Source: Haloplanus salinus
Lineage (GTDB): Archaea > Halobacteriota > Halobacteria > Halobacteriales > Haloferacaceae
NCBI RefSeq assembly: GCF_003336245.1
Contig: NZ_QPHM01000001.1
Span: 620,001 to 684,000, forward strand
Reading direction: 5' to 3'
DNA: 64,000 nucleotides
Of this stretch, positions 46,172 through 60,555 are shown piece after piece. The notes beneath the pieces were generated by a model that worked only from the letters and a program-made list of their open reading frames with translations, ran no database searches and had not been told where the DNA came from. A program made the position numbers and the translations under genes. Position 1 is the first letter of the stretch, and every line of letters starts with the position of its first letter.

Positions 46172-47506
46172 TCATTCGGGTACCCCATCTGGAGGATGTA
46201 AGAACAGTAGGATAACGAGGACGCCGAAGCCCCCAAGCAGAAACACGTTGAACGCGCCGGAGTAGGCGAGCCCAGTCAGTTGGCCGGCGACGGCTGCTCC
46301 GGCGAATCGCTTGGGAAGGTCAGCGGCGGCGCAGTCGAGCGCGTAGAACGCCAGCGCCAGCAGGGTGGCGAGGAAAAGAATGCCGAGGAGCCCCGCCGCG
46401 GCGTAGCCGGACCCCCAGAACGGTGCGTTAGCGACCTGTTCCGGACGGCCGAGCATCTCGCGGCCGATCAAGCGAGCAACTGGGAGATCATATTGGTAGG
46501 GAACGCCGGTCCACGTTCGTCCACCCCAGTAGGTGTGCGGGTTCGACGAGAAGAACTCGACGTGATAGGCCGTCATGAATCCCGGAGTGATGAGCGTCCG
46601 GCGGCCGAGGCCGAGCAGTTGGGAGGGGGCACCGAGGCGGTCGAGGAAGAGGAGGCTGGACAACGACATCGGCCCGCCAAGGACGGCATACGTAGGAAGA
46701 TGCTGGCCGTCGTCGTGTAGGCCAACGTAGAGCGCAACCGCCATGCCCACGGCGAAAAAGGCCGACTTGAACCCGCCGACTGCGAAGACGGTGAGCATCG
46801 CGACGAGCCCCACGCCAGCCACCCATGGCACGGTCAATCCTGCGAGTGACCCGGCGACTAGGAGAGGAGTGAATGTGTTTTCGAGCCAAGTAATCCCGTA
46901 GCTGATCACGCGGAAGAACACTGGACCGAACGACCGCAGCCGCGCGCGGAAGGTGTCGCGGACGGCATAGATATCCCCCGTGATCGTGAGAGAGCGACCA
47001 AACACAGCGATGAGAAGTGCGAGCAGACCGAGCGTGCCGAGAAGCAGCAGACGCCAGAAGAGACTCCGCGAAAGGTGTTCACGGACGTTGATCGTCGGAA
47101 GGCGATACGGCAGTGTCAACATATAAAATGAGAGTGCGACGGTAAGCGCGAACAGCGGATATCGCTCGCGGAGGACGAACGCGTGGAGTGTCACAACCGG
47201 GACGTATGAGACGGGGTACAGCCACCACAGGATGACCTGCGACGGCCGTCGGTAGGTCCGTGGGAGGAAGACTGCCGGCAGGAGCGCCAAGATTCCGACA
47301 AAGATGGCATAGGCCGGATGCGGCATGGCGAACGTGAACGGTGACCAGCCATCGTACAGGGGCACGTCCAAATACCACGTCGTACCAACCACCAGCAGTG
47401 TATAGATACCCATCGCGGCGACGCTCCCGAGTGTGGTTTGGGCTGGCCACGCGAGCGAGGCGACGGGGCGGAGGGCCGAATCAAGTCGCCCAGCCGCGTT
47501 ACTCAT
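46172..47506 (-). CDS. Polytopic O-antigen polymerase/ligase-like membrane protein
   Basis: 444 residues from the ATG at 47506 (MSNAAGRLDS). About eleven to twelve hydrophobic segments cover most of the length, with a large non-membrane loop around 285-365 (FSSNPHTYWGGRTWTGVPYQ and following). This layout of many helices and one long loop in the C-terminal half is that of Wzy-type polymerases or WaaL ligases. No strict motif supports one over the other. It begins a glycan locus with flippase and glycosyltransferases. TATA-like ACATATAAA lies about 14-22 bases before the ATG on the minus strand. Confidence 0.75.
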   Translation of the reverse strand: MSNAAGRLDSALRPVASLAWPAQTTLGSVAAMGIYTLLVVGTTWYLDVPLYDGWSPFTFAMPHPAYAIFVGILALLPAVFLPRTYRRPSQVILWWLYPVSYVPVVTLHAFVLRERYPLFALTVALSFYMLTLPYRLPTINVREHLSRSLFWRLLLLGTLGLLALLIAVFGRSLTITGDIYAVRDTFRARLRSFGPVFFRVISYGITWLENTFTPLLVAGSLAGLTVPWVAGVGLVAMLTVFAVGGFKSAFFAVGMAVALYVGLHDDGQHLPTYAVLGGPMSLSSLLFLDRLGAPSQLLGLGRRTLITPGFMTAYHVEFFSSNPHTYWGGRTWTGVPYQYDLPVARLIGREMLGRPEQVANAPFWGSGYAAAGLLGILFLATLLALAFYALDCAAADLPKRFAGAAVAGQLTGLAYSGAFNVFLLGGFGVLVILLFLHPPDGVPE

Positions 47507-47537
47507 CGCCACACAAGAGTTTATATGTAGCGGAGTT

Positions 47538-47573
47538 CTCCCACCCCGGTTTTAATTTCCGGGTGGGTGGGAG
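47538..47573. repeat. Inverted repeat upstream of the Wzy-like gene
   Basis: CTCCCACCCCGG and CCGGGTGGGTGGGAG flank an AT-rich loop (TTTTAATTT). It lies about 32 bases upstream of the Wzy-like gene start. It may be an IS-end hairpin like the other two in the window or a terminator/operator; the stem has small mismatches. Confidence 0.45.
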
Positions 47574-48078
47574 TAGTGGCTTGGCAACGCGTGCATCGGT
47601 GGCTGTGGACTCGCGCGTGTCATCGGCTGGCTCCTGTCGAAGAAGACGCGCTACTGTCGAGGAGTCTTCGGCCGCAGCGAGTGTCTCGCGGTGGATGTGA
47701 AGCGATTGCAGTATCATATAAGTGTGCGAGTTACGCCACACCTCCGTACAGTCCATAGATCTGCTTATTGACAGCCAGATAATTAGTGTTTCCCTGACGA
47801 CTACGCGGCACCAATCCACTATGACCATTGGCATCACAACCGCCAGCTCAACAAGCGACACGGTCCGGACGACCAACCTTGCCGCGACTGGCAGCGACGC
47901 CGGGAGTCGGGAGGCCATGGCGGTGACCGGCGCCGATACCACGAATGACGAGTGGGCTGTGACCCGCGATTAGTTGAAGGGCTTGGTCAGTCTGACGGCG
48001 TACTGATCGACAAGCGTGAGATAGAACCACTTAGGGTAGGCGTCAATACTATATCATCCGACAGTTTCAATACTATGT
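47574..48078. other. Gene-poor AT-richer stretch
   Basis: About 505 bases before the sulfatase-like gene. The only ORF of note is a 50-codon frame at 47821-47973 (MTIGITTASSTSDTVRTTNL), Thr/Ser-rich and unrecognised. AT-rich sequences near 48040-48065 (ACTATATCATCC) probably include the promoter of the next gene. Confidence 0.4.
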
Positions 48079-49482
48079 ATGAAGCCGAATATTATCTGGA
48101 TATCCTTAGAGAGTGTTCGTGCCGATGCAACTTCATTAAATCGAACAACACACTCCCCCACTCCGAATCTTGCGCGGATCGCCTCGCAAAATAACGGACA
48201 GTGGTTCGGTAACTGCTTTGCACATGCTCATTGGACGCCAGCATCAACCACTTCCATTCTAACCGGGGTTTATCCATCGAGTCATGGAGTCGGCTACTCA
48301 GATTTAGAGAACGTGACAACCGTCCCCGATGGAGTCTCAACTGTCCCCGAATTACTCGTCGATGAGGGCTATCAAACAGCACTCTTCGGGGGCAACACTT
48401 TTGTAAGCGAAGCGACTGGCCTTGATAGAGGTTTCGACACCTGCGAAAACACCTCGACTGCAGACATGTTCACAAGTCGGGGCCTGGAAGCACTCGTCCG
48501 TCATATTTCTGATTATCGATATAATGGCCTCGCGACGAGTACTAACTTAGACAGTCATAAGGACAGTCTTAGAGAGTGGCATCAGTACCTCGGCCTCCGC
48601 CGTTGGGCAGACAGGCGGCGGGGATCGGGTCATCCGTTCTTTGCGTATGTTCATATTAATAATTCTCATAGCCCCTTCCGCCCCCCTCCGTCAGTTCTGA
48701 AACGCGTGTTGGCGGGGAGTGACATCACTCCATCAAAGGCGCTCATATCCGCTAAGGAGTTCGATGACTCCCTTTCAGAAATGATGGCAAACGGAATCAT
48801 GTTGAATGCCGACCAACGGCAAGCTATATTAGCTGCTTACGAAGCAGAAATCCGGTACGATGATTATTTTGTTGGAAAGATATTCGAATGTGTTCAAAAA
48901 AAGGATGACACGATTCTAGTCGTCACGGGCGACTACGGTGAACTATTTGGTGAGAGTGGGGCGTATGGGCACAATATGGTCTTACACGACAAACTTCTGC
49001 ATGTCCCACTCGTTGTATACGGTCTTGACCAGACCGATATCTCCACCGACACTTTAGTTCAGCATATCGACGTAATGCAGACCATCCTGAACCGAATTGG
49101 AGCCGACACATCTCAATTCCAGGGCCATGATCTGGAAACTGATCAAAGAGAGTTCATCATCGCCCAACGCGGATCGGTGGCCCATCGATTTGAAAAATTG
49201 CGGGACATCAATCCGGAATTTGACCCCGGCCTATTTCACGAGACAGAGTTAGATTGTATTCGGTCCCGCGAGTGGAAATATCAACAAAGCGGCGACCGCG
49301 AGGAGTTATTCCAACTTCCAGACGAGCAGACAGATGTCTCTAATCAGTTTCCGTCCAAAGCACGAGAACTCAAACAAGTTCTTGAGGATCACCTTCCAGT
49401 AGTAGAGTATGATTCAAACGGGCAGGCTGAGTTCGACGAAGACATGAAAGACCACCTTCAAGACATGGGCTATATTGACTAA
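48079..49482 (+). CDS. Sulfatase/alkaline-phosphatase-superfamily protein
   Basis: 467 residues. The metal-binding start NIIWISLESVRAD and later VVTGDYGELFGESGAYGH are those of the superfamily. The nucleophile region reads HAHWTPASTTSILTG and then VYPSSHGVGYSD, where type I sulfatases have (C/S)-x-P-x-R; a Thr next to Pro remains, as in phosphoethanolamine transferases. Sulfatase, phosphodiesterase or a phospho-alcohol transferase acting on glycans are all possible. The gene is clearly richer in A/T than the window average and uses A/T-ending codons, suggesting acquisition from another lineage. Confidence 0.85.
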   Translation: MKPNIIWISLESVRADATSLNRTTHSPTPNLARIASQNNGQWFGNCFAHAHWTPASTTSILTGVYPSSHGVGYSDLENVTTVPDGVSTVPELLVDEGYQTALFGGNTFVSEATGLDRGFDTCENTSTADMFTSRGLEALVRHISDYRYNGLATSTNLDSHKDSLREWHQYLGLRRWADRRRGSGHPFFAYVHINNSHSPFRPPPSVLKRVLAGSDITPSKALISAKEFDDSLSEMMANGIMLNADQRQAILAAYEAEIRYDDYFVGKIFECVQKKDDTILVVTGDYGELFGESGAYGHNMVLHDKLLHVPLVVYGLDQTDISTDTLVQHIDVMQTILNRIGADTSQFQGHDLETDQREFIIAQRGSVAHRFEKLRDINPEFDPGLFHETELDCIRSREWKYQQSGDREELFQLPDEQTDVSNQFPSKARELKQVLEDHLPVVEYDSNGQAEFDEDMKDHLQDMGYID

Positions 49483-49872
49483 GCTACTGCATTCGCAGCA
49501 CGAACCTATCACTCCACAGCCTCGATAACCCCGGTTCGACGCTGACTCCACAGGATGTGGGAACATTCCCCATCCGCTCTACTCACACGGCACCATCATC
49601 ACCTGCTGGGGCTCGACGAGGCTGGCGGACTTCTGCGGATACGGAATCGGAGGGAAGACGATGCACACGGCGGGTGCCGGGGCAACGTCTACATCGCCGT
49701 CTAGACGTTCGATGAGTAGGCAGAAGTGGAACGAACCGAATGAGGCGACAGCTCTGAGGATGGGGAGTTCGGTGAAGACAGTTCCTGGGCGTGAGCGACG
49801 TTGCGGTGTCTCGTCGTCGTGTCGACCGTCGTGGATGACAGTAGAACGTGGTAGTAGGCGGCTACGACGTTC
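49483..49872. other. Intergenic stretch, possible decayed ORF
   Basis: About 390 bases. A minus-strand frame of about 65 codons (with FHFCLLIERLDGDVDVAPAP and then AVCIVFPPIPYPQKSASL) is open but has no recognisable family and no clear start; a different minus-strand frame to its right also looks partly protein-like. Remnant of an unidentified gene or IS is possible. Confidence 0.3.
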
Positions 49873-50961
49873 TCAACCGCGAGTAACCGTCGCTTCGACC
49901 GTCACGGTGCCGAAGTCGAGAACGACGGTCCGCCCCTGCCGAAGCGCCGATCCTTTGAATCGGACGCCGGTACTCGTCTCTCGAACTCGTAGTTCGGCGG
50001 TCATCGTAACGTCCTTTTGAACCGGGTGTTGGCGCTGGTAGACGTTCCCGTCCTGGCTGGTGAGAACGACAGTCGCTGGTGTTACGGTAACGTCGGTTAG
50101 TCGGGCGACCGTTTCCCCCCGAACGCGCTCGGTGAGGCCCACGCCGAGGCTCGACGAGAGATCGGGATCGACGTTTTCCATTTTCAGAGAGACGGTGCGC
50201 GTGGCCGTCTGCCCGACCGGAGTCAGCGCACCGACACGTGCCACCTCCCCTTCGAAGGCGTAGAGATCAGTTTCCATAGGTATCGTTGCTCCATGCCGAA
50301 TCGCGGTTCCGCCGAACTGTGGTCCGTCGGCGGATCGGTAGGTTTGGTACGTGATACCGACGTACGCAACCGTAGTGTCGCTTCCCGAACGGTACGCACT
50401 CACCGACTGGATCGTAGCAACATTTCGCCCGTCGATACGAAACACCTGACCGCGTTCGATATCGTTCGCCGTCTCGGTGGTGAGTTCTGTCCGGAGGAGA
50501 ACATCGATAGGTTCTGTGGGGAGATTCGGATTCTCGTTTTCAACCGCTGTAATAGTTCCACTAGTCGTGTACTCCTCGGTCACGAGTTCCACATTTCGAC
50601 CGACCCTCAGCGGGGCACCCGCGTACGTGACCGTTTCACCGTCCATCGGAGCCGTAATTCGTGCTCGGACCCGAACGCGACGGTCGGACCCGGACGCCGT
50701 CGTGTACACGTCGGTGATCGTGACGTTCGCTCCGGTCGTGTCGACGGTGGTATCGCCTTCGCTGACGAGCGTAGCGACGTAGTTCGGCTGTGTACCGAGA
50801 TCGACAGTTACGTATCGCGTGCCGGAGGTAGTTTGAGAGGGATCGTCCAGCAGAACGAACGTCGCACCGGCGACCACGATGGCCACTGCCAAGAACACGG
50901 CGACAGCGTCGACGATGTTGATTCGACCGAAGATGTTGCCCTCGCTGTCGATCAACGCCAC
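49873..50961 (-). CDS. DUF4330 family protein, single-pass membrane
   Basis: 362 residues. MALIDSEGNIFGRINIVDAV followed by a hydrophobic helix (AVFLAVAIVVAGATFVLL) is the DUF4330 start. The large outer domain shows repeated beta segments with G-R-N-V-(E/A) and (V/I)-R-x-G-x-x-(V/I/M) patterns. DUF4330 proteins occur in archaeal and cyanobacterial surface-polysaccharide loci; function unknown. Most of the protein should lie outside the membrane. Confidence 0.85.
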   Translation of the reverse strand: MALIDSEGNIFGRINIVDAVAVFLAVAIVVAGATFVLLDDPSQTTSGTRYVTVDLGTQPNYVATLVSEGDTTVDTTGANVTITDVYTTASGSDRRVRVRARITAPMDGETVTYAGAPLRVGRNVELVTEEYTTSGTITAVENENPNLPTEPIDVLLRTELTTETANDIERGQVFRIDGRNVATIQSVSAYRSGSDTTVAYVGITYQTYRSADGPQFGGTAIRHGATIPMETDLYAFEGEVARVGALTPVGQTATRTVSLKMENVDPDLSSSLGVGLTERVRGETVARLTDVTVTPATVVLTSQDGNVYQRQHPVQKDVTMTAELRVRETSTGVRFKGSALRQGRTVVLDFGTVTVEATVTRG

Positions 50962-51080
50962 AATGGATCACCAGGTGGTTGCACGGGCTAAATGTAGATT
51001 AGTGGAACAAAAACTGTGATGGTCGCAAAGATGCGACGTGATCGGAGCGGAACCGCGCAAATTGGTTCCGTTCATAGATA

Positions 51081-51896
51081 TTAGGAACGGAAATATCTTC
51101 GATACGTGCGTTCGAGAAGCCGCTTGGGGAAAAATCGAAGCGGGATTCGCACCGAGAGGTTCAGCAACGCTATTTTCCAGTCATAGAATCCAGTTTCGAC
51201 GATTGCCCGTTGTAACTCGATTTCTCGTTTGGCGATATCCCATCCTTGACGACGAGCAATAACTCCGTCGGCACGGACTTTCACCAAGACTTCGGGAACG
51301 TTGGCTAGCACCCGATCGTTCGACAATAGTCGGCACCACAGTTCGTAATCCTCACCGTACTCCATATGCCGATAGTTTCCGGCATCAACGACGGCTTGCC
51401 GTCGGAACATGACGGTCGGATGATTAACCGGGGACCGGTAGTGGGCCATCCGCCGAACGGCGCCTGGGTCGGTTGGAACCTCACGGACCGCTCTGATCTC
51501 TCCGGACGACGTTTCGAACTCGCCAATGAAGCCACCGGCTACGTCGACAGTCGGATTCGATTCGAAGAACGCCAACTGTCGTTCGAGTCGGTGTGGCAAC
51601 GCGATGTCGTCGGCGTCGATAATGGCGACGAACTCCGAGTCGGCTCGTTCGACTCCGACTTTGCGGGCGTGACCACGACCACGTTCGTCGACGGCAACGT
51701 CTCGGACGTGAAAATCCGCCCGTGCCTCCAGATCGTCGATCGCTGCGACCAGTTCCGACGGTAGATCGAAGTCGCGAACGACAACGAGTTCGTCCGGCAG
51801 TCGTCGTTGAGTTACCAAACTATCGAAACACTCCCGGAGCTCCGACACCTCGTCGCCGACGTACGTCGTCATGACGACCGAAATAGTTCGACTCAT
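51081..51896 (-). CDS. Glycosyltransferase family 2
   Basis: 271 residues from the ATG at 51896 (MSRTISVVMTTYVGDE). The GT-A fold motifs are SVVMTTYVGDEVSELRECFD, ADSEFVAIIDADDIALPHRL (DAD metal site) and YGEDYELWCRLL (the ED of GT2). The hydrophobic C-terminal RIPLRFFPKRLL is typical of membrane-associated GT2 proteins. It transfers a sugar from an activated nucleotide sugar onto a lipid-linked glycan, by family. It lies 120 bases downstream of the GT4 gene on the same strand. Confidence 0.9.
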   Translation of the reverse strand: MSRTISVVMTTYVGDEVSELRECFDSLVTQRRLPDELVVVRDFDLPSELVAAIDDLEARADFHVRDVAVDERGRGHARKVGVERADSEFVAIIDADDIALPHRLERQLAFFESNPTVDVAGGFIGEFETSSGEIRAVREVPTDPGAVRRMAHYRSPVNHPTVMFRRQAVVDAGNYRHMEYGEDYELWCRLLSNDRVLANVPEVLVKVRADGVIARRQGWDIAKREIELQRAIVETGFYDWKIALLNLSVRIPLRFFPKRLLERTYRRYFRS

Positions 51897-52016
51897 GATC
51901 GACGTTTTGAGGGTGGAGGGATCAGCACGGATCGATCCCCGGTGGCACGTTCGTGTCCGGACGTCCGCCGCCGCGGGGAGAACGTGTGTTCCCACCAAGC
52001 GGTCGGTCGAGTCGAA

Positions 52017-53156
52017 TTATACGACACTTCGATACACCTCGCATGTTCGGCGGGCGATATCCACCCACGAGGGGATCGATTCGACTAGATCACCGATGTT
52101 TTCGCTCATTCGAGCCGCTAACTCAGTATCGGAAAGTATTCGATTCATCGCATCCGAAAGCTCCTCGCTATTCTTCGGGGGCACGAGGTAGCCATGCTTT
52201 CCGTCGGTCAATACCGAGGCGAACCCGGCGATGTCTGTCGCCACGATCGGTGTTTCGTACTGGAGTGCGGTCAACAGCGCACCGCTCTGATCGATGTCGT
52301 CGTACGGAAAGACGATCAGATCGGCGTCGGAGAACAGTCCGGGAACTTCCGCGTCGGGGACGAAGCGTAAGTCCCAATGGACCGAAGGCTGAACGCCGAG
52401 AGCCGTCGCTCGCTCTCGAAGTGGTCGAACGTCCATCTTCGGGCTGCCTGCGATGTGTAGCTCGACTGTCTCACGGATGTCGGCGGGAAGTTCCGCGTAT
52501 GCTTCGAGCAGCGTCTCGATGTTCTTGTACGGTTTTATGGTGCCGAAGAAAAGAATCGTGCTGGTGTCAGTATCTTCGGTTTCACTCGGTTGAGGTGGGT
52601 ACTGCAAGATGCCGTGGGGAATGATAGAAATGTCTCTTGATCGAATATTTTGTGCCACCAGTTCGTCTTGTGACATCGGAGTGTGGACGATCAGTTGATC
52701 GAAGAGCTCATACACCGACTCGGCGCCCAAAAGCTGGATCGGCGATGTGCTCGCACCACGGAAAGGCGTCGTGTCGTGGACGGTCAACACGAGGGGTGCA
52801 ACGCGTCGAAGTGCCTGAAGGAACAGTCTATCGACGATAGGAAGAGGGAGCCACTGGAAGTGAACGACGTCAGGGTCCATCGCCCTAATTTTTCGAACGA
52901 AGAGGGACATATCGACGATATGCTCGGTTCCTTTGACCACGGTTCGTCCGAAGGACACGTCCCGGCCCGAGTAGAGGTCGTTCGTATGGCTGTAGAAGTA
53001 CGCAAGCCGTCGATATGACGTGTCCCCGTCCCACAGGAAGTAGTCGGAATCGGTCGTGAACAGCGTGAGTTCACACCCCGTCTCCGCCAATCCAGCACAG
53101 AGGTGATGGTCGTATGGAGGCGTAAACGCCGACGGGTCGACCATGGCGACTTTCAT
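52017..53156 (-). CDS. Glycosyltransferase family 4 (GT-B)
   Basis: 379 residues from the ATG at 53156 (MKVAMVDPSAFTPPYDHH). GT-B features: PHG in ISIIPHGILQYP, ILFFGTIKPYKNIETLLEAY, the acceptor/donor motif FSDADLIVFPYDDIDQSGAL, and PIVATDIAGFASVL. The active-site E-x7-E is altered (DDIDQSGALLTALQYETP), so retaining catalysis cannot be confirmed from one motif. Function is in glycan assembly at the cytoplasmic face. An alternative start lies 11 codons upstream. Confidence 0.88.
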   Translation of the reverse strand: MKVAMVDPSAFTPPYDHHLCAGLAETGCELTLFTTDSDYFLWDGDTSYRRLAYFYSHTNDLYSGRDVSFGRTVVKGTEHIVDMSLFVRKIRAMDPDVVHFQWLPLPIVDRLFLQALRRVAPLVLTVHDTTPFRGASTSPIQLLGAESVYELFDQLIVHTPMSQDELVAQNIRSRDISIIPHGILQYPPQPSETEDTDTSTILFFGTIKPYKNIETLLEAYAELPADIRETVELHIAGSPKMDVRPLRERATALGVQPSVHWDLRFVPDAEVPGLFSDADLIVFPYDDIDQSGALLTALQYETPIVATDIAGFASVLTDGKHGYLVPPKNSEELSDAMNRILSDTELAARMSENIGDLVESIPSWVDIARRTCEVYRSVV

Positions 53157-53226
53157 CGAAATAACAAGTCGCGGACCGCACTCTTTCATTTTTCGGTGCC
53201 TGCAGTGGTGTCGTGTGATCGGTGAA

Positions 53227-53236
53227 ACATATATAC
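53227..53236 (+). promoter_or_regulatory. TATA box of the sulfatase-like gene at 53262
   Basis: ACATATATAC lies 26-35 bases before the ATG at 53262, consistent with a leaderless transcript. The region is shared with the divergent GT4 gene start. Confidence 0.6.
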
Positions 53237-53261
53237 CGGTGGCCGACGACCTGTCGAAAGT

Positions 53262-54506
53262 ATGAATGAGCGTTCGGACATCGTACTCGTGACCGTTGAC
53301 TGCTGGCGGTACGATGCACTCGCGCGGATGGACGAATTACGCTCTTCGGTGGTGGGGTACGATCGAACGGACGCGATCTGTCAGTCCGCAGCGACACCGG
53401 GAGTGTTCCCGTCGATTCTGGCTAGTCTATACTACCCACAAGCGTACACTCCATCCGGGCGCTTGCGTGAATCCGTCAGTACGCTCCCGACGGTACTTTC
53501 ACGACACGGATATCGGACGGGAGCAGTCGTCGCTGACAACCCGTTTCTGGACCGGTTCTCGGAGGGATTCGACTTCTTTTGGAACGGGGCATCTGGCGGA
53601 GAGACGCGGTTCGACCGACTCCTACGCCTCGGCCTACAGCGCGATACCGTACCAGTGACCGAAGTCGCCGAACGTGCGAGAGAGTGGTTCACCGACACGG
53701 ACGACCCGACGTTCTTATTTACGCACTTGATGGATCCCCACGAACCGTATCTCCCAGGACTACGCCGAGGCTTTAGCGAAGGGGTCGTCAACTCGTACTG
53801 GACTCTCCGGAAATTCGCACGGGATCGACAGTCGTTATCCAAAAACGAGAAACAAACCATCCAAAATCTCTACTGGCACTGTATCGATTACCTAGATGCG
53901 CACATCCACGAACTCTTCTCGTTCGTTCCCGAAGACGCGATCGTAGTGCTCATGCGAGACCACGGAGAGGAGTTCGACCACGGCGCGTATCGACACGCCA
54001 GGCTCTACGACGAGTGCGTCCGTGTGCCGTTTTTGAGTAAGAACCTCGCCCAAGGACGAATAGGCGAAGCACCTATCCGGCAGATAGACCTCGCGCCGAC
54101 TATTCTGGCAGAACTCGGGATCGAGGCACCAGCGACGTGGCTCGGAGAACCCATGTCCGGGGAACCACGGCACACTCACCTACTGAATCATTCGCCACAC
54201 CGCGGCGAGAGCTATGCTGGAGTGCGAACGTCGGACGGGAAACTCGTCAAAACGTTCGCCGAGGGCCTGGAAAACGAACCCACGACGGATTTCTTCGACC
54301 TACGGGCGGACCCCAGAGAGGAGACCAACCGTTACGAACATGCGGACGACGAACGGATACGGGACTTGGAAAGTGATCTGGACGAATTTCTGGCCGAAGA
54401 GGGCATAAGAGAAGGCGTCCAGTACGGTACCGAACCGAACATCGGAGAACGGGAGGATAACGAGGAAACGGTCGAAGAGCGGCTATCCGCGCTGGGGTAC
54501 AGGTAG
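53262..54506 (+). CDS. Sulfatase/alkaline-phosphatase-superfamily protein
   Basis: 414 residues. DIVLVTVDCWRYDALARMDE holds the first metal Asp; LFTHLMDPHEPY and VLMRDHGEEFDHG hold other metal ligands. The nucleophile segment reads SAATPGVFPSILASLYYPQA, with Thr before Pro and no Cys/Ser-x-Pro-x-Arg. It ends LSALGYR, a C-terminal LGY pattern shared with the three related proteins in this locus. Probably a modifying enzyme on an extracellular or lipid-linked glycan. Confidence 0.88.
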   Translation: MNERSDIVLVTVDCWRYDALARMDELRSSVVGYDRTDAICQSAATPGVFPSILASLYYPQAYTPSGRLRESVSTLPTVLSRHGYRTGAVVADNPFLDRFSEGFDFFWNGASGGETRFDRLLRLGLQRDTVPVTEVAERAREWFTDTDDPTFLFTHLMDPHEPYLPGLRRGFSEGVVNSYWTLRKFARDRQSLSKNEKQTIQNLYWHCIDYLDAHIHELFSFVPEDAIVVLMRDHGEEFDHGAYRHARLYDECVRVPFLSKNLAQGRIGEAPIRQIDLAPTILAELGIEAPATWLGEPMSGEPRHTHLLNHSPHRGESYAGVRTSDGKLVKTFAEGLENEPTTDFFDLRADPREETNRYEHADDERIRDLESDLDEFLAEEGIREGVQYGTEPNIGEREDNEETVEERLSALGYR

Positions 54507-54571
54507 GGAGTACGAGCGGTATTGACGGGGTATCGTGCCGCACTCTCGGGTGAGTCGGACATAGCCGGATG

Positions 54572-55513
54572 CTACTTGTAACCCAGTGCCTCCAGCTTCT
54601 CTTCGACGCTGAGGTTCGGTTCCCTTTCGGGCTGAGGTTCGTACATGGGTTGATACTCTCCGTTATCCGAGGCGGATGTGACACACCATGGAACCCGCTT
54701 CAGAACGTCGATGTACGTATAACACGGGTGAGCCCAGACACCTTCCTCCCCGAAGGCCTGACCGTGATCAGACGAGAGAACGACATGCTGTGCGTCGATA
54801 CTGTCTAAGAGGAGTTCGACGTCGTCAAGAACGTAGCGGAGGTTGTCGAGCGAAGCACTCCATAGCGTGTCTCGGCTGTACCCCTCGTCGTGCAGCTCCC
54901 CGAGCGTAAGCCCCTCTCCCTGGACGCCGACCGGGGTGACGATGTTGCTCTCAATGTCGTTGTTCACGAACGGGAGGTGAGGCTGCATGTAGTGAATTAT
55001 CGTCCGATCGGGGTCAAGTTCGCGATGGAAGTGGATGGCCCGGTCTGTGACTTCCTGAGCCAGAATGGTTCCCTGTTCCTCGTCCCAGCCGTCTTCCCAC
55101 ACCTCTTCGAGATGGAGAAACTGATCATCCCGTAAGTGCCGATTGGAGGACGTATTGGCGGTGACGTGTAACGTTCGGTCCATCTCGTCTCGGTACTCCT
55201 CGGTGAACGTATGTCGCATCCACTCATCGGAGCAAGTTCCCATGCTAACGTGTTCGCCGATATTATCGACGAACGGATATTCGCCGGCGACTTCCGCCAT
55301 CATATCGATTGTCGCACAGTCCAGAAGGATCAGGACGTCCCAGTCGCGGTCGTACACGTTCACCGCGTCGCTTTTATGAAAAGTTTGATATTTGATCTCG
55401 TTCGTCACGAAGTTCATCCCTGAAAGGGCAGTGGCACCCAAACCACGGATCCCCCGTTCGTCCACGTTTCGTCGGGATGAGGCCAGAAGTTGCTGGAGGA
55501 TACGCATACTCAT
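54572..55513 (-). CDS. Alkaline-phosphatase-like protein (short form)
   Basis: 313 residues. The motifs are DVLILLDCATIDMM (first metal Asp), TCSDEWMRHTF in the nucleophile region, IIHYMQPHLPFV and VVLSSDHGQAFGEEGVWAHP. It is shorter than sulfatases and lacks the formylglycine motif. It resembles the protein at 55797-56723 in organisation (both have a W-D-x-L-(I/L)-L-(L/I)-D start and an LGY ending). The ATG is within an AT-rich divergent region with that gene. Confidence 0.82.
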   Translation of the reverse strand: MSMRILQQLLASSRRNVDERGIRGLGATALSGMNFVTNEIKYQTFHKSDAVNVYDRDWDVLILLDCATIDMMAEVAGEYPFVDNIGEHVSMGTCSDEWMRHTFTEEYRDEMDRTLHVTANTSSNRHLRDDQFLHLEEVWEDGWDEEQGTILAQEVTDRAIHFHRELDPDRTIIHYMQPHLPFVNNDIESNIVTPVGVQGEGLTLGELHDEGYSRDTLWSASLDNLRYVLDDVELLLDSIDAQHVVLSSDHGQAFGEEGVWAHPCYTYIDVLKRVPWCVTSASDNGEYQPMYEPQPEREPNLSVEEKLEALGYK

Positions 55514-55796
55514 ACTACGGAGAACGTGTCCACTGACGGTACCGCTCGGACCGATTCGACTCCAAAGGGCCAGCCGAGTACATGTTCGATGTGGGGTGTA
55601 CGCTGAGAGCTATTCGTTCACCAACCAACATAAATTATGCCACCCGATTGGCTCGTTGAAGCGACCCGGTACTGAAGCGAGCAGCAGCGACGTTCCGATG
55701 TGAAAATTGACAACGTTTATTCATAGGTTGGGAGAATACGTTGTTAGCGACGTATATCCAGCTCGAACAAAAGTGTGAAACTGTGGATCAACCAAG
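55514..55796. promoter_or_regulatory. Divergent promoter region between two alkaline-phosphatase-like genes
   Basis: 283 bases with AT-rich islands (AACATAAATTATGCC near 55627, ACAACGTTTATTCATAGG near 55710). It carries the promoters of the divergent paralogues. No ORF of interest is seen. Confidence 0.45.
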
Positions 55797-56723
55797 ATGG
55801 ATACGGTAGACAGGTTACTGAGAGCGGCCAAGCATCCAAATCTGTTCGTCCGTGGGGCGAATCGCCTCTACCACCGGCGCCTCAATAGACGGGCGTATAA
55901 CACCGACGGGGTGGGCGTCTTCGACGAGGACTGGGACTGTCTCTTGATCCTTGATGCGTGCCGGTACGATATGTTCGAGCAGCACCACGAACTACCTGGA
56001 GAGTTGGAGTCCCGAATATCGAGGGGCTCGGCTACGGTCGAGTTCCTCCGCGGAAATTTCGTCGGCAAACCACTGAACGACACCGTTTACGTGACGGCTA
56101 ATCCGCAGTTCTACCGAAACCGGGAGCGGCTACCGACCGAACTCTACGACGTGGTGAACGTGTGGCAGCGGGATGGCTGGGACGAGAAACACCAGACCGT
56201 GCTGCCGGAAACAGTTAACGAGTACGCCAAGGAGGCAGCGACGACGTATCCGAACAAGCGACTGGTCGTGCACTATATTCAGCCACATTACCCGTTCATC
56301 GGGTCCGAAACCTCGTTCGATAAGAACCACCTGAACGTCGAGGACCCAGACGAGGAACGGCTATGGGACCAGTTGATGACTGGGGAGCTGAAGATGTCTC
56401 GCGATTCTATCTGGCAACTGTACGTGGATAATCTTCGGACCGTCCTCCCGTACGTCGAGGAACTGATGACGGAACTGACGGGGAAAACAGTCGTCACCGC
56501 AGACCACGGAAACATGGTCGGTGAGCGGGCGTCACCGTTCCCGATTACGGAGTGGGGTCACCCTCGGGGAATGTACACTAAACAGCTGGTGACGGTTCCG
56601 TGGCTCGTCTTCGAGAACGGTCCAAGACGTGAGACTGTGGCCGAGGACCCGATCACCGAGCGTGAGGATGTCGATACCGAAATCGTTTCGCAGCGGTTGG
56701 CTGACCTCGGTTACATAGATTGA
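55797..56723 (+). CDS. Alkaline-phosphatase-like protein (short form)
   Basis: 308 residues. DCLLILDACRYDMFEQHHEL holds the first metal Asp; GSATVEFLRGNF is the nucleophile region; VVHYIQPHYPFIG and VVTADHGNMVGER hold further ligands. It is a paralogue of the protein at 54572-55513 in layout and ends LADLGYID. Its stop is 2 bases before the stop of the convergent flippase gene. Role: hydrolase or transferase on a glycan or lipid intermediate, by context. Confidence 0.82.
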   Translation: MDTVDRLLRAAKHPNLFVRGANRLYHRRLNRRAYNTDGVGVFDEDWDCLLILDACRYDMFEQHHELPGELESRISRGSATVEFLRGNFVGKPLNDTVYVTANPQFYRNRERLPTELYDVVNVWQRDGWDEKHQTVLPETVNEYAKEAATTYPNKRLVVHYIQPHYPFIGSETSFDKNHLNVEDPDEERLWDQLMTGELKMSRDSIWQLYVDNLRTVLPYVEELMTELTGKTVVTADHGNMVGERASPFPITEWGHPRGMYTKQLVTVPWLVFENGPRRETVAEDPITEREDVDTEIVSQRLADLGYID

Positions 56724-56725
56724 CT

Positions 56726-58177
56726 TTACTCCAGCGATTCGAGAAGTAGAACGTCCTCGTCCGAGAATCCGAAGTACCAGACGAGAGCCGCAAACACCGT
56801 CGTCGAGATGACGCCGGTCAAGAGAACTCGGAGGACTGTCGGTAGCGGGATTGTCTGTCCGAGCAGCATTATCGGGAAGGCACCGGCGACAGCCGCTAAA
56901 CCCCGCCAGTAGTCCCGTGAATACGGCTGGATTCCCAGAAGGTACCACGTTTGGACTAAACGCAGAACGTTCAATACGATGAAAGAAACACCGGTCGCGA
57001 TAGCTGCACCGACTATTCCAAACTCTTGGATTAGAATGTAGTTCAATGCGATGTTCAGAAGCGAAACCAGCACGGAGTTCACCATCTGCAGCCTCTCGTA
57101 CTCCGACATCGTAAGGAGAAGCCCGGCAGGCCCGACCAGTGCAGCGGCTAACTGACCGACTGCCAAGATGGAGAGTGCGGTTTCGGCGGCCCGAATGGTC
57201 GTTCCGAAAATTCCGAGAATACTCTCCAGAAACACGAGGAGGAACAGAAATCCGAATAGCGTCAGTGCGACCACCCACTTGGTTACGACGGTGTAGATTT
57301 GCCCCAGTCGTTCGTGTTGATCCGTATGGTACAAGTCGGAGGCCAGCGTGGGAAAAATCGAAAACGTTGCTTGGAGGACAACGGAGAGGAGGACCGACGT
57401 CTGATACGCCGCTTGATACCACCCGACCTCGGTTGGCGTCCGAAAGAGTCCGAGCATGAGAATGTCGGTCCACGTCACCAGATACAGCGTCACGGCCGCA
57501 ATCGTGAGCGGAAGGGCGAACCCCAGAACTTCTCGAAGCGGGACGCTGGGCCGTACGTCGAAAGAGAACGCGCCTTGATACGAGAGGAACGAAATGGCGA
57601 GGACCGCGCCGAACCCTAACGAAATGAGATATCCGAAAATAACGGCTTGAACGTCCGAGAGGACGTAAGCACCCACGACCGCCAAGACGAACGCAACTAT
57701 CGACTGACCGATTTCGCGGGTGTATACGTAGTATTTTGTCTCTTTGAATCCTCTCGTCGCGGTGGCGGCCACCATCATCGTCGAGAAGAGCGGGACACCG
57801 ACGAGAAACAGTTGGGTCGTGACTCCGAGATCTGTTCCCAAGACGTTGCTGATCGTCCTGCGCTGCAGGTAGATACTACCCGAAATGGCTGCGCCGACGA
57901 GCGTCGGGAGTCCGATGCACAGGAGCGTCGTTCCGCTCACCAGTGCTGGCTCCTCTTCCGAGAGATAGATCGGGATGTATTTTTGTGCCGCTTGATCCAA
58001 GCCCATCCGCGTTACGACCGAGATGGCCTTCATCACGACCAGTCCGAATGCAACGACTCCCAGCGCGTCGGGACCAAGTCCGCGGGCGATGACGATATTG
58101 AAACCGTAGCGCAGTCCACGGCCCACCAAGCCACCGACGAACGCGATAGAGACGAGGTTGGTGAAGTTCTGTTTCAT
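56726..58177 (-). CDS. Wzx-like oligosaccharide flippase (MATE/MOP superfamily)
   Basis: 483 residues with about fourteen membrane helices. The start NLVSIAFVGGLVGRGLRYGF and GLGPDALGVVAFGLVVMKAI are the polysaccharide-synthase/flippase pattern, and IVGAAIATGVSFIVLNVLRL is the conserved late helix pair. It moves lipid-linked oligosaccharides across the membrane, working with the Wzy-like protein and glycosyltransferases of this locus. Confidence 0.92.
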   Translation of the reverse strand: MKQNFTNLVSIAFVGGLVGRGLRYGFNIVIARGLGPDALGVVAFGLVVMKAISVVTRMGLDQAAQKYIPIYLSEEEPALVSGTTLLCIGLPTLVGAAISGSIYLQRRTISNVLGTDLGVTTQLFLVGVPLFSTMMVAATATRGFKETKYYVYTREIGQSIVAFVLAVVGAYVLSDVQAVIFGYLISLGFGAVLAISFLSYQGAFSFDVRPSVPLREVLGFALPLTIAAVTLYLVTWTDILMLGLFRTPTEVGWYQAAYQTSVLLSVVLQATFSIFPTLASDLYHTDQHERLGQIYTVVTKWVVALTLFGFLFLLVFLESILGIFGTTIRAAETALSILAVGQLAAALVGPAGLLLTMSEYERLQMVNSVLVSLLNIALNYILIQEFGIVGAAIATGVSFIVLNVLRLVQTWYLLGIQPYSRDYWRGLAAVAGAFPIMLLGQTIPLPTVLRVLLTGVISTTVFAALVWYFGFSDEDVLLLESLE

Positions 58178-58373: not shown

Positions 58374-58910
58374 CTATTTAGCGTCGATTGCACCGGGTTC
58401 GAACGCCATCGTAGCGACGTACTCGCGGACGTGCCCCGTCTCCGAGTCACTGGACTGCTCTTCCTGTGTCATGATGTCGAAAGTGGACGACGAAACGTTC
58501 TTGATTCGAACGTCGGCCGTGTTCCGACCGAACAACGACTGCATCCGGTGGACCATCGCCGGGGTGTCGGTGTACGAGTCTTGAAGGCTGCTCGTCGACC
58601 AGTCACCGGTAGAGAGTGAGGATGCGATACTTTCACCCGAGCCGCCGACGTCACCGGATCGGGGCTCAGTGACCACGAACCCCACTGTTTCGTCCGCGTG
58701 ATCGTTCGTCCAAGAGTCTCCCCCGGTCTGATTGGCCTCCTCTTCCTGGCAAATGACGTCGAACTGATCTTCACCGGTTTGTGTGATCCGCGTGGAAACT
58801 GCCGTCGAATCGTTGTTCGACATCACCTGCGTGTACACGTGTGACTGGGCGTTCCAGCTCGGAGTGAAGTTGACCGTCGTCCAGTCGCCGCCGCTCGCGG
58901 TTGCCCCTCC
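58374..58910 (-). pseudogene. Displaced C-terminal part of the halolysin-like protease
   Basis: This frame (TASGGDWTTVNFTPSWNAQ, then HVYTQVMSNNDSTAVSTRIT and on to EYVATMAFEPGAIDAK) continues the protease sequence after a one-base shift within the C-rich 58903-58911. It holds the second and third copies of the C-terminal beta-sandwich repeat. It is not a free gene: its only ATGs lie inside the repeat. Confidence 0.75.
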
Positions 58911-60555
58911 CAGCTAGAACTTTCATGCCAGCTGCAGTACTGTGTTCCCCGGCCTCAATCAGGACGTATGCAACACTCTCCGTTGCGTGCGCCCCATCCT
59001 GATACGCCCACTCTTCCAACTTCACCTCGAAACTCCCGCTCCCCACGTTCCGAACTCGCGCGTGCACCGGATCGGGATCGTTGAACGTCCCCACGGACGT
59101 AACCACCACAGGATCGGTGTACGACCCTTCGAGGCTAACTGTCGTCCAATTCTCGTCGACCGAAATCGTGCCTGCTTCGCCAATCATGTTCTGAATGTCC
59201 GATGTTGCCGCCGTCGCGTCTAGCAATCCGTTCCCTCCATCCGACCCCGACAATCCAATATCCTCCGCGGAGTCCTGCAACGCCGACCGCGCCTCACCGC
59301 CCGTATACCCGTTCGCCATCAGTAATCCACCGACCCCACTCACGTGGGGACACGCCATCGACGTCCCGGAGAAGTACGCGTACCCCCCGGGAACGGACGA
59401 CAGGATCGACGACCCGGGCGCGGCAATGTCTATCTCCGGCCCGGTCGAGGAAAACGACGCGAGGGCGTCCGAACTCGTCGTCGCGCTCACGGCGACCACC
59501 GAATCGTACGTCGCGGGGTAGGACACGCAGTCCGAACACGGCCCGTCGTTGCCCGCGGCCGCGACCACCAGCACGCCCTGATCGGCGGCGTACTGACACG
59601 CGTTCCGGAGCGTCGAGTAATCGGCTGAGGAGCCGAGGCTCATGCTCGCCACGTCCCAGCCTTGATTCGCGGTGTATTCGACACCGGCGGCGATATCCGA
59701 AAGATACCCCGTCCCGCTACAGGAGAGGGCCTTGACGGCGTGGAGCGTCGCACTGGGCGCGACGCCGACCACGCCCTCGTCGTTGGCCACGCCGGCGGCG
59801 ATGCCGGCACAGTGCGTGCCGTGGTCGTTGTCGTCGTCCCACGGCTCGTTGGTCGTGTTGCCGTTGCCGCTACAGCTACTGCCGTCGTAGTCGGTGCCGG
59901 CCTCGACGTACGCCTTGCCCGCGCCGAGGTTGTCGACGAGGTCGGGGTGGTCGCTGTCGATGCCCGTATCGATGATGGCGACGTCCGCGCCCGTGCCGGT
60001 CGTCCCGCCGTCGTGGACGGTATCGGCGTCGACGCGGTCGACGCCCCAGGGGAGCGACTCGCCGATAGCCTCGAACGTCGCGTCGGGTTCGACGTAGCGC
60101 ACGTCCGGCCGGTTGGCGAGACCTTTCCGTGCCTGTTCGGGGAAGCGGCCCGCGACGGCCTTGCCGCGGTCGCCGAAATCGAGTTTGTGACGCACCTCCC
60201 GCGCCTGCCGCGCCGCCTCGTCGGCGGCAGCCTGCGTGTCCGTCCCGACGATGACTCGATCCGGGGGACCGCGGCCGGGAGTGTCGTCGTTGCCGGCGGG
60301 GGGGCGCCCGTTCCCGTTCCCGTTCCCGTTCCCGTTTCCGTTTCCGTTCCCACCGCGCGCGTCGTTACCCGCGTGACTCGGTGGCCCACGCGCGGCCGCC
60401 GCGGCGCCCAGTCCGAACGCCCCGGCGCCCGTCGTGAGGCCGACGAGGAGTCCGCGTCGCGTCGTCGGTGTGGCCGAGTGCCCGTCCGCAGAATCGGCCT
60501 CGTCGGCTGCGTTGCCACTCTCCGTGCCCGATGGGTCGGGTGCCTCTGAACCCAT
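58771..60555 (-). CDS. Halolysin-like secreted subtilisin protease, frameshifted near the C-terminus
   Basis: 594 residues as read. Tat signal TTRRGLLVGLTTGAGAFGLG (31-50), a Gly-Asn repeat and an I9-type propeptide region (VRHKLDFGDRGKAVAGRFPE) precede the S8 domain. The triad is Asp in VAIIDTGIDSDHPD, His in NDHGTHCAGIAAG and Ser in FSGTSMACPHVSG; the oxyanion Asn is in AAAGNDGP. After a first H-lectin-like repeat (NWTTVSLEGSYTDPVVVTS), a one-base shift sends the frame into RGNRERRRLDDG and ends it. The catalytic domain is complete, so activity could remain. Function: extracellular protein breakdown. Confidence 0.9.
   Translation of the reverse strand: MGSEAPDPSGTESGNAADEADSADGHSATPTTRRGLLVGLTTGAGAFGLGAAAAARGPPSHAGNDARGGNGNGNGNGNGNGNGRPPAGNDDTPGRGPPDRVIVGTDTQAAADEAARQAREVRHKLDFGDRGKAVAGRFPEQARKGLANRPDVRYVEPDATFEAIGESLPWGVDRVDADTVHDGGTTGTGADVAIIDTGIDSDHPDLVDNLGAGKAYVEAGTDYDGSSCSGNGNTTNEPWDDDNDHGTHCAGIAAGVANDEGVVGVAPSATLHAVKALSCSGTGYLSDIAAGVEYTANQGWDVASMSLGSSADYSTLRNACQYAADQGVLVVAAAGNDGPCSDCVSYPATYDSVVAVSATTSSDALASFSSTGPEIDIAAPGSSILSSVPGGYAYFSGTSMACPHVSGVGGLLMANGYTGGEARSALQDSAEDIGLSGSDGGNGLLDATAATSDIQNMIGEAGTISVDENWTTVSLEGSYTDPVVVTSVGTFNDPDPVHARVRNVGSGSFEVKLEEWAYQDGAHATESVAYVLIEAGEHSTAAGMKVLAGRGNRERRRLDDGQLHSELERPVTRVHAGDVEQRFDGSFHADHTNR
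60307..60350 (-). repeat. Hexanucleotide repeat coding Gly-Asn
   Basis: About seven 6-base units (CCCGTT/TCCGTT on the plus strand) encode a Gly-Asn run in the propeptide linker of the subtilase. Repeat-length changes here keep the frame. Confidence 0.8.

Follow-up and report, generated by a model that had tools for sequence, protein, structure and literature searches.

We analyzed a stretch of 64,000 nucleotides (hereafter, the window) from the 3.5 Mb genome of Haloplanus salinus (contig NZ_QPHM01000001.1), in which a cassette of nine glycan genes lies at 46–58 kb with a guanine-plus-cytosine (GC) content of 0.52–0.61, compared with 0.62–0.73 elsewhere in the window. The genes are arranged in the order Wzy-like (–), A (+), DUF4330 (–), GT2 (–), GT4 (–), B (+), C (–), D (+) and Wzx (–), where A to D denote four proteins of the alkaline phosphatase (AP) superfamily, the subject of this analysis. 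A first-pass annotation had reported four such genes, starting at 48079, 53262, 54572 and 55797, in a surface-glycan locus; all four are present, the one at 54572–55513 on the minus strand, and the assembly genes of the cassette agree with the proposed setting. The flippase and the glycosyltransferases named in that annotation were recovered by Pfam: the Wzx-type flippase (56726–58177, –) matched PF01943 (E 3.9e-21) and has 13 hydrophobic segments, the GT2 glycosyltransferase (51081–51998, –, with its real start codon perhaps at 51890) matched PF00535 (E 1.7e-20) and the GT4 glycosyltransferase (52017–53189, –) matched PF00534 (E 4.7e-29). The Wzy-like protein, a polytopic membrane protein and candidate polymerase (46172–47512, –), gave no Pfam match at E ≤ 1 but has six hydrophobic segments and a relative with 58% identity in Salinigranum salinum. 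The DUF4330 protein (49873–50961, –; PF14221, E 9.9e-30) contains one membrane segment, has relatives in 11 of the 77 loci of D relatives described below, and is a candidate component of glycan assembly.

The gene order is largely kept in S. salinum (locus L076), where DUF4330, GT2, GT4, B, C, Wzy-like, D and Wzx follow one another with 57 to 70% identity; the cassette is therefore not a chance assembly, and it constitutes a real and informative feature. Because both order and identity are kept (B 64%, C 65% and D 70%), B, C and D represent a conserved set. A found no close match within the S. salinum locus and has the lowest GC content of the nine genes (0.489), and it looks like an addition to the cassette. 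An open reading frame (ORF) of 467 residues with an LGY end and a weak A/B-type match (29 bits) lies between the Wzx and subtilisin genes of S. salinum (L076:12624–14027), and is possibly an alternative accessory occupying the place of A. A subtilisin-like protease gene (58771–60555) also adjoins the cassette in the window, and a gene whose product is 65% identical is located near the S. salinum cassette.

A (48079–49482, +) is an S1-sulfatase-like AP protein (Pfam Sulfatase, E 1.2e-35), and B (53262–54506, +) is a protein of the S1-sulfatase fold (Pfam Sulfatase, E 9.2e-20). C (54572–55513, –) and D (55797–56723, +) are small AP-type proteins of approximately 310 residues, a class without a Pfam name, which scored 15 bits against Pfam Sulfatase, under the cut-off of 25, and are 32% identical to each other over 289 alignment positions. 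A comparison of the C/D-family profile with the A/B-family profile gave an hhalign probability of 99.2 (E 3e-19) and aligned Thr80 of D to Thr45 of B, also matching the DHG motifs of the two families, which indicates that the two classes are homologous. The AP core fold was found in B and D by structure prediction, in A by Pfam and in C via its alignment with D.

The metal-binding ends that the first-pass annotation considered to be kept are indeed found in B (VDCWRYD and RDHGEEF) and D (ADHGNM), but A contains D-Y-G in place of D-H-G (48931–48939, +), a loss of His that had been overlooked. The predicted metal ligands are Asp13 (53298–53300, +; Asp in 48 and Glu in four of 52 aligned sequences) and Asp233-His234 (53958–53963, +) in B, and Asp53 (55953–55955, +) and Asp236-His237 (56502–56507, +) in D. 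As previously noted for these genes, the candidate nucleophile at the position of the sulfatase Cys is Thr or Ser: Thr53 in A (48235–48237, +), Thr45 in B (53394–53396, +), Ser95 in C (55229–55231, –) and Thr80 in D (56034–56036, +). A nucleophile together with Asp/Asp/His ligands was accordingly found in B, D and, via alignment with D, C; A lacks part of this set.

We then compared the nucleophile column across an A/B-type alignment (A5; A and B together with 50 of the 53 ORFs selected) and a C/D-type alignment (A4; 83 sequences, with L067, L101, L122, L131 and L136 left out). All 52 A/B-type sequences contained Thr (44) or Ser (8) at this column, as did 82 of the 83 C/D-type sequences (Thr 79, Ser 3, with Leu in the remaining one), and Cys was observed in none of the 135 sequences, A to D included. 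Furthermore, Asp53, His159, His164, Asp236, His237 and His255 were invariant in 83/83 sequences of the C/D class. The S1 sulfatase pattern C/S-x-P-x-R is absent from A to D, C having Ser without x-P-x-R. Because Cys is absent while Thr/Ser and the ligands are conserved, A to D are unlikely to use formylglycine sulfatase chemistry, as the first-pass annotation had proposed, and catalysis through Thr or Ser is likely in these AP classes, judging from the alignments. A is an exception in its class, and may be impaired or altered by its metal site.

Structure prediction, which had been suggested as a means to identify the nucleophile, was applied to B and D. The AlphaFold2 models (D, mean predicted local distance difference test (pLDDT) 91.9 and predicted template modeling score 0.91; B, pLDDT 89.0) place each of the two Thr residues first in a helix (residues 45–54 in B and 80–88 in D). 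The list of structural neighbors of B is headed by sulfatases (S1_25 sulfatase 6hr5, Z 33.1). No P-loop sulfotransferase was matched by Pfam in A to D at E ≤ 1, in agreement with the AP fold of B and D. A simple hydropathy scan detected neither membrane segments nor export signals in A to D; the N-terminus of D contains a basic amphipathic stretch.

The statement that all four proteins end in LGY holds for B (LGYR; LGY at 54492–54500, +), C (LGYK; 54578–54586, –) and D (LGYID; 56706–56714, +), whereas A ends in DMGYID (MGY at 49465–49473, +). In addition, this tail, first described as a trait of these four proteins, turned out to characterize almost every AP-type ORF of the haloarchaeal loci analyzed. 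When the LGY-ending family was sought in other haloarchaeal loci, as had been proposed, a C-terminal [LM]GY followed by 0 to 4 residues was found in 150 of 152 AP-type ORFs (≥250 residues) from 77 loci, compared with 9 of 1202 other ORFs, which were called mechanically and include antisense ORFs that inflate this denominator. Seven of these nine were PF01663 phosphodiesterases, which belong to another AP subfamily, and the others were one glycosyltransferase and one flippase; two AP-type ORFs (in L106 and L143) lack the tail, perhaps through a wrong reading frame. Similarly, in AglB neighborhoods the tail was present in 27/28 AP-type and 2/321 other ORFs, and in 20 control loci, which contain no AP-type ORF, it was present in 0/386 ORFs. 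The tail consensus is R-L-x-x-L-G-Y. The genome of the window yielded eight sulfatase-type AP proteins, every one with the tail (MGY in A), whereas its best PF01663 protein, at 512 kb, lacks it. The same genome contains a further pair of sulfatase-type AP genes, both LGY-ending and approximately 6 kb apart (G000:C1:2370423–2371493 and 2377466–2377855), which possibly marks another glycan locus.

Outside the order of the host, the tail was missing in 4/4 readable complete relatives of the small (C/D) class, a count that excludes L222 (wrong frame) and L234 (partial). Two genomes from one family outside the order, G409 and G400 (loci L226 and L228), have 10 and 16 small-class matches, respectively, some of which are pieces of one gene, and the LGY tail is missing in both members that were read. 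Eight IMG/VR contigs classed as viral (L068 to L075; GC 0.36 to 0.67) encode small-class relatives whose best-matching segments show 26 to 32% identity; L068, L070 and L074 stop shortly past a VPW motif, and L069 has a different end. On L071, L072, L073 and L075 the relatives have a terminal [LM]GY followed by 0 to 2 residues, so the tail is not strictly haloarchaeal; two of these tailed contigs have a GC content under 0.62 (0.36 in L075). LGY-like ends may also occur in some bacterial sulfatases. In the models the tail is poorly resolved (pLDDT 62 for residues 301–308 of D, and 55, 70 and 59 for residues 391–400, 401–410 and 411–414 of B), and among the 60 solved structures listed no best stretch extended beyond position 454 of the 464-position profile. 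Being poorly ordered, yet common to classes whose identity is otherwise just 22 to 26%, the LGY tail looks like a docking motif.

The small class is widespread, with a match in 96/117 genomes of the order (E ≤ 1e-10) and in 29 of 148 genomes drawn from the phylum, six of which are outside the order. One scan yielded 406 stretches encoding D relatives, of which the best 80, in 77 loci, were retained; their sources were haloarchaea or archaeal metagenome-assembled genomes, one being labeled just Euryarchaeota. We searched the neighbors of D relatives for glycan genes (covering 95 of the 150 ORFs selected, those in loci L076 to L128; all were the nearest mechanically called ORFs of 180 to 900 residues without a match to the AP models), and found 22 GT4, 12 flippase, seven GT2 and six Wzy_C members among the 95, compared with at most 1/80 for each in control ORFs from 20 arbitrary loci. 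Moreover, AglB and a small-class match occur together in 23 genomes of a single haloarchaeal family (f12), and in 13 of these the two are no more than 20 kb apart, against approximately one genome expected from a rough count of copies per genome. This proximity was obtained by coordinate comparison, and the 20 AglB neighborhoods mentioned above were placed toward known matches where these were present.

We hold with moderate confidence that B, C, D and perhaps A are cytoplasmic AP-superfamily transferases that put charged groups, most likely sulfate, on a lipid-linked surface glycan. The neighboring glycosyltransferases would build an oligosaccharide on a lipid carrier. A single metal ion, coordinated by Asp/Asp/His, would activate the Thr (in C, the Ser) that begins a helix; this residue would accept the group from a donor, forming a covalent ester with the enzyme, and then hand it to a sugar hydroxyl. 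Separate paralogs would act on separate sugars, and the Wzx-type flippase would export the glycan after substitution. Transfer or removal, of phosphate or of sulfate, had both been left open by the first-pass annotation; we favor transfer, and consider sulfate likelier, because of the precedent of Agl30 and Agl31, the lack of membrane segments and the biosynthetic neighborhood. Also in favor, a canonical sulfotransferase (PF13469) was found in just 1/117 genomes of the order (PF00685 and PF03567 lay outside this search). According to a recent report (PMC11980604, 2025), deletion of Agl30 (VNG1056C) and Agl31 (VNG1057C) strongly lowers the glycan sulfation of Halobacterium salinarum, and each of them sulfates the glycan of Haloferax volcanii when expressed there. 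The same report describes the two proteins as sulfating two different sugars of one glycan, which fits the earlier suggestion that divergent copies serve distinct sites. Sulfate transfer is likeliest for B, which has fold neighbors in common with these enzymes; it is plausible, although less sure, for C and D, because their class includes VNG1063H, a protein without effect on sulfation.

Several observations weigh against this interpretation. Of the tested proteins, VNG1063H alone is assignable to the C/D class, and N-glycan sulfation was unaffected by its deletion; a basal sulfation also persisted without both Agl30 and Agl31 (PMC11980604). The placement of VNG1063H follows from its published primers, one of which yields a KELGYIE C-terminus in one of three frames, and another, likewise in a single frame, VHYFQPH. 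As a pattern, VH[YFM]xQPH was found in 63/97 C/D-type ORFs, and in 0/3852 other ORFs of the 77 loci, 0/1322 control ORFs and 0/983 ORFs of AglB neighborhoods, which puts C and D in the same class as VNG1063H. The likeness to Agl30 and Agl31 itself was judged by primers, annotation and fold neighbors. Among our own proteins, A departs from its class in the metal site: the Tyr of its D-Y-G stands at a column that is His in all 51 other sequences of the 52, and it has Glu at a column that is Asp in 48/52. The nearest folds of D are phosphoethanolamine transferases, namely EptA (5fgn, Z 15.0, 223 residues aligned with ~13% identity) and MCR-1 (Z up to 14.4), with sulfatases tied (Z 14.1) and many structures at 13 to 14. 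Finally, no synthesis of the usual sulfate donor was found in the genome of the window by the families searched, so that sulfate transfer would need an unknown donor.

Most known sulfotransferases use 3΄-phosphoadenosine-5΄-phosphosulfate (PAPS), which is produced by ATP sulfurylase and adenosine-5΄-phosphosulfate (APS) kinase. We searched the 117 genomes, 20 of which are <90% complete or >5% contaminated, for these enzymes, counting APS kinase only above 100 bits, and PF01747 and PF01507 at E ≤ 1e-15, thresholds at which a very divergent enzyme could be missed. A clear APS kinase was found in six genomes, the ATP sulfurylase family PF01747 in three and PF01507, which includes CysD, in four; the APS-kinase matches of 20 to 30 bits that most genomes contain were set aside as, in our reading, other P-loop proteins. 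Among the 96 genomes with the small class, the corresponding numbers were five, zero and one (62 bits), and in none of them was a sulfurylase candidate paired with the kinase, as far as the families searched extend (CysN was not among them). The sole genome of the 117 with ATP sulfurylase, clear APS kinase and PF13469 together (G011:C31:16447–19646, ~3.2 kb) is a single case, and is without the small AP class. In a 2012 genome paper, the sulfate–APS–PAPS route is likewise described as absent in sequenced haloarchaea (PMC3402447).

The cell envelope or wall of Halococcus is described as highly sulfated (PMC13321033). In this genus (g25), PF01747 or PF01507 was found in 0/9 genomes and a clear APS kinase in 1/9, and small-class matches averaged 6.6 per genome, while the remaining 88 near-complete genomes averaged 3.4 (Mann-Whitney test, P = 0.0017; a post hoc test, uncorrected for kinship, in which matches may include gene pieces). 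The higher average of Halococcus speaks for the proposed role, against which stand the post hoc choice of the test and the average of 8.0 in the genus g27. Three explanations are left for the missing route: a donor not yet described, an activation pathway that has diverged greatly, or transfer of some other group by many of these enzymes. As a tentative and rather doubtful extension, haloarchaea might sulfate surface glycans without PAPS, through Thr-nucleophile AP enzymes and an undescribed donor, with the R-L-x-x-L-G-Y tail docking several AP subfamilies on a common partner, perhaps a donor-making or glycan-assembly complex.

The absence of a PAPS route by the families searched also agrees with another possibility, that A to D transfer phospho-substituents (phosphoethanolamine, phosphoglycerol or similar) from a membrane lipid in the manner of EptA/MCR and LtaS, on the cytoplasmic side. 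EptA, MCR and LtaS use a Thr nucleophile; EptA and MCR-1 head the structural neighbors of D, also in Foldseek; the amphipathic N-terminal stretch could bring D to the membrane; and 2/40 plasmid relatives listed are publicly annotated as 'LTA (lipoteichoic acid) synthase family protein'. However, sulfatases lie nearly as close to D and head the list of B, EptA and LtaS work outside the membrane on anchors that A to D lack, and the characterized relatives Agl30 and Agl31 transfer sulfate (PMC11980604); we regard this possibility as unlikely, while giving it the most weight among the alternatives. It is less probable still that the proteins are hydrolases (phosphatases, phosphodiesterases or unusual sulfatases) that trim the glycan or recycle intermediates: the solved relatives of these folds are mostly named hydrolases, and a Thr-type AP phosphatase is known (PorX, T271), but hydropathy shows neither an export signal nor a membrane segment in A to D, which sit in assembly cassettes, and Agl30 and Agl31 add sulfate rather than remove it. 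A structural or regulatory role for some copies as pseudoenzymes, A being the likeliest in view of its Tyr, its low GC content and its lack of a close match in the syntenic locus, appears most improbable, since the invariant ligands and the Thr/Ser of the C/D class argue for catalysis. A role in anti-phage defense was rejected, 0/4 AP proteins matching a PADLOC model at E ≤ 0.01.

If transfer of charged groups is indeed their function, several hundred haloarchaeal genes (406 stretches), which carry the labels hypothetical, sulfatase or LTA synthase in the annotated records examined, may be transferases building charged, probably sulfated, surfaces. Sulfated glycans would then be produced by most haloarchaea in the absence of the standard donor pathway, which would turn the donor into a definite question open to experiment; the LGY tail is a convenient sequence marker of these enzymes and offers a way to capture a partner. 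Our literature search, in which the tail was not a search subject and the donor was covered only narrowly, found no paper directly on the subject besides PMC11980604. As far as searched, the Thr/Ser active site across both classes, the cross-subfamily LGY tail and its coincidence with the missing donor route are new.

Among known systems, the S1 formylglycine sulfatases (such as 6hr5, BT1596 and choline sulfatase) have their fold in common with B, which differs in having Thr in place of Cys/Ser-x-Pro-x-Arg, no membrane segment and a biosynthetic locus. EptA/MCR provide the best fold match of D, but D has no membrane domain. Like EptA and LtaS, A, B and D have a Thr nucleophile (C has Ser); a membrane anchor with an outside catalytic domain was not detected in A to D by the hydropathy scan. 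Agl7 of Hfx. volcanii, which contributes to sulfation of a lipid-linked hexose (PMC3871713), is similar in function. VNG1063H is similar to C and D in the VHYFQPH pattern and the LGYIE end, and differs in that its deletion left N-glycan sulfation unaffected.

The closest comparison is that with Agl30 and Agl31. In PMC11980604, three AP-annotated genes are reported in the aglB cluster of Hbt. salinarum, and the closest solved structures by DALI are 5G2U for Agl30 and VNG1063H and 6HHM for Agl31; the terms 'active site' and 'PAPS' are never mentioned in its main text. The same two structures matched our models (Z 32.5 and 31.4 for B, and 13.6 and 13.9 for D), so that B, as modeled, has fold neighbors in common with both enzymes. 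When the published primers were translated in the frames set by the tag, the C-termini were HLEDLGYL (Agl30) and LEELGYT (Agl31); because these C-terminally tagged proteins are active, a free C-terminus seems not to be required. An Agl30 primer also reads GLWTPGY in one frame, similar to the T-P nucleophile motif in A and B; since this frame is unproven, the likeness was not used. The agl30 cloning primer had no match in 392 genomes of the order or in 26 genomes of one family, the agl30 quantitative PCR primer had none in the named genome collection, and the peptides from these primers were not found in the 20 AglB neighborhoods. Both systems consist of sulfatase-like AP proteins, several per glycan-assembly cluster, with overlapping nearest structures and an LGY end (MGY in A), which in Agl30 and Agl31 is followed by one residue. 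The Hbt. salinarum cluster builds an AglB-linked tetrasaccharide, whereas the present cassette has Wzx/Wzy-type genes and four AP copies. With membership in their group unproven, the feature is best set beside the Agl30 and Agl31 sulfotransferases by its probable mode of working.

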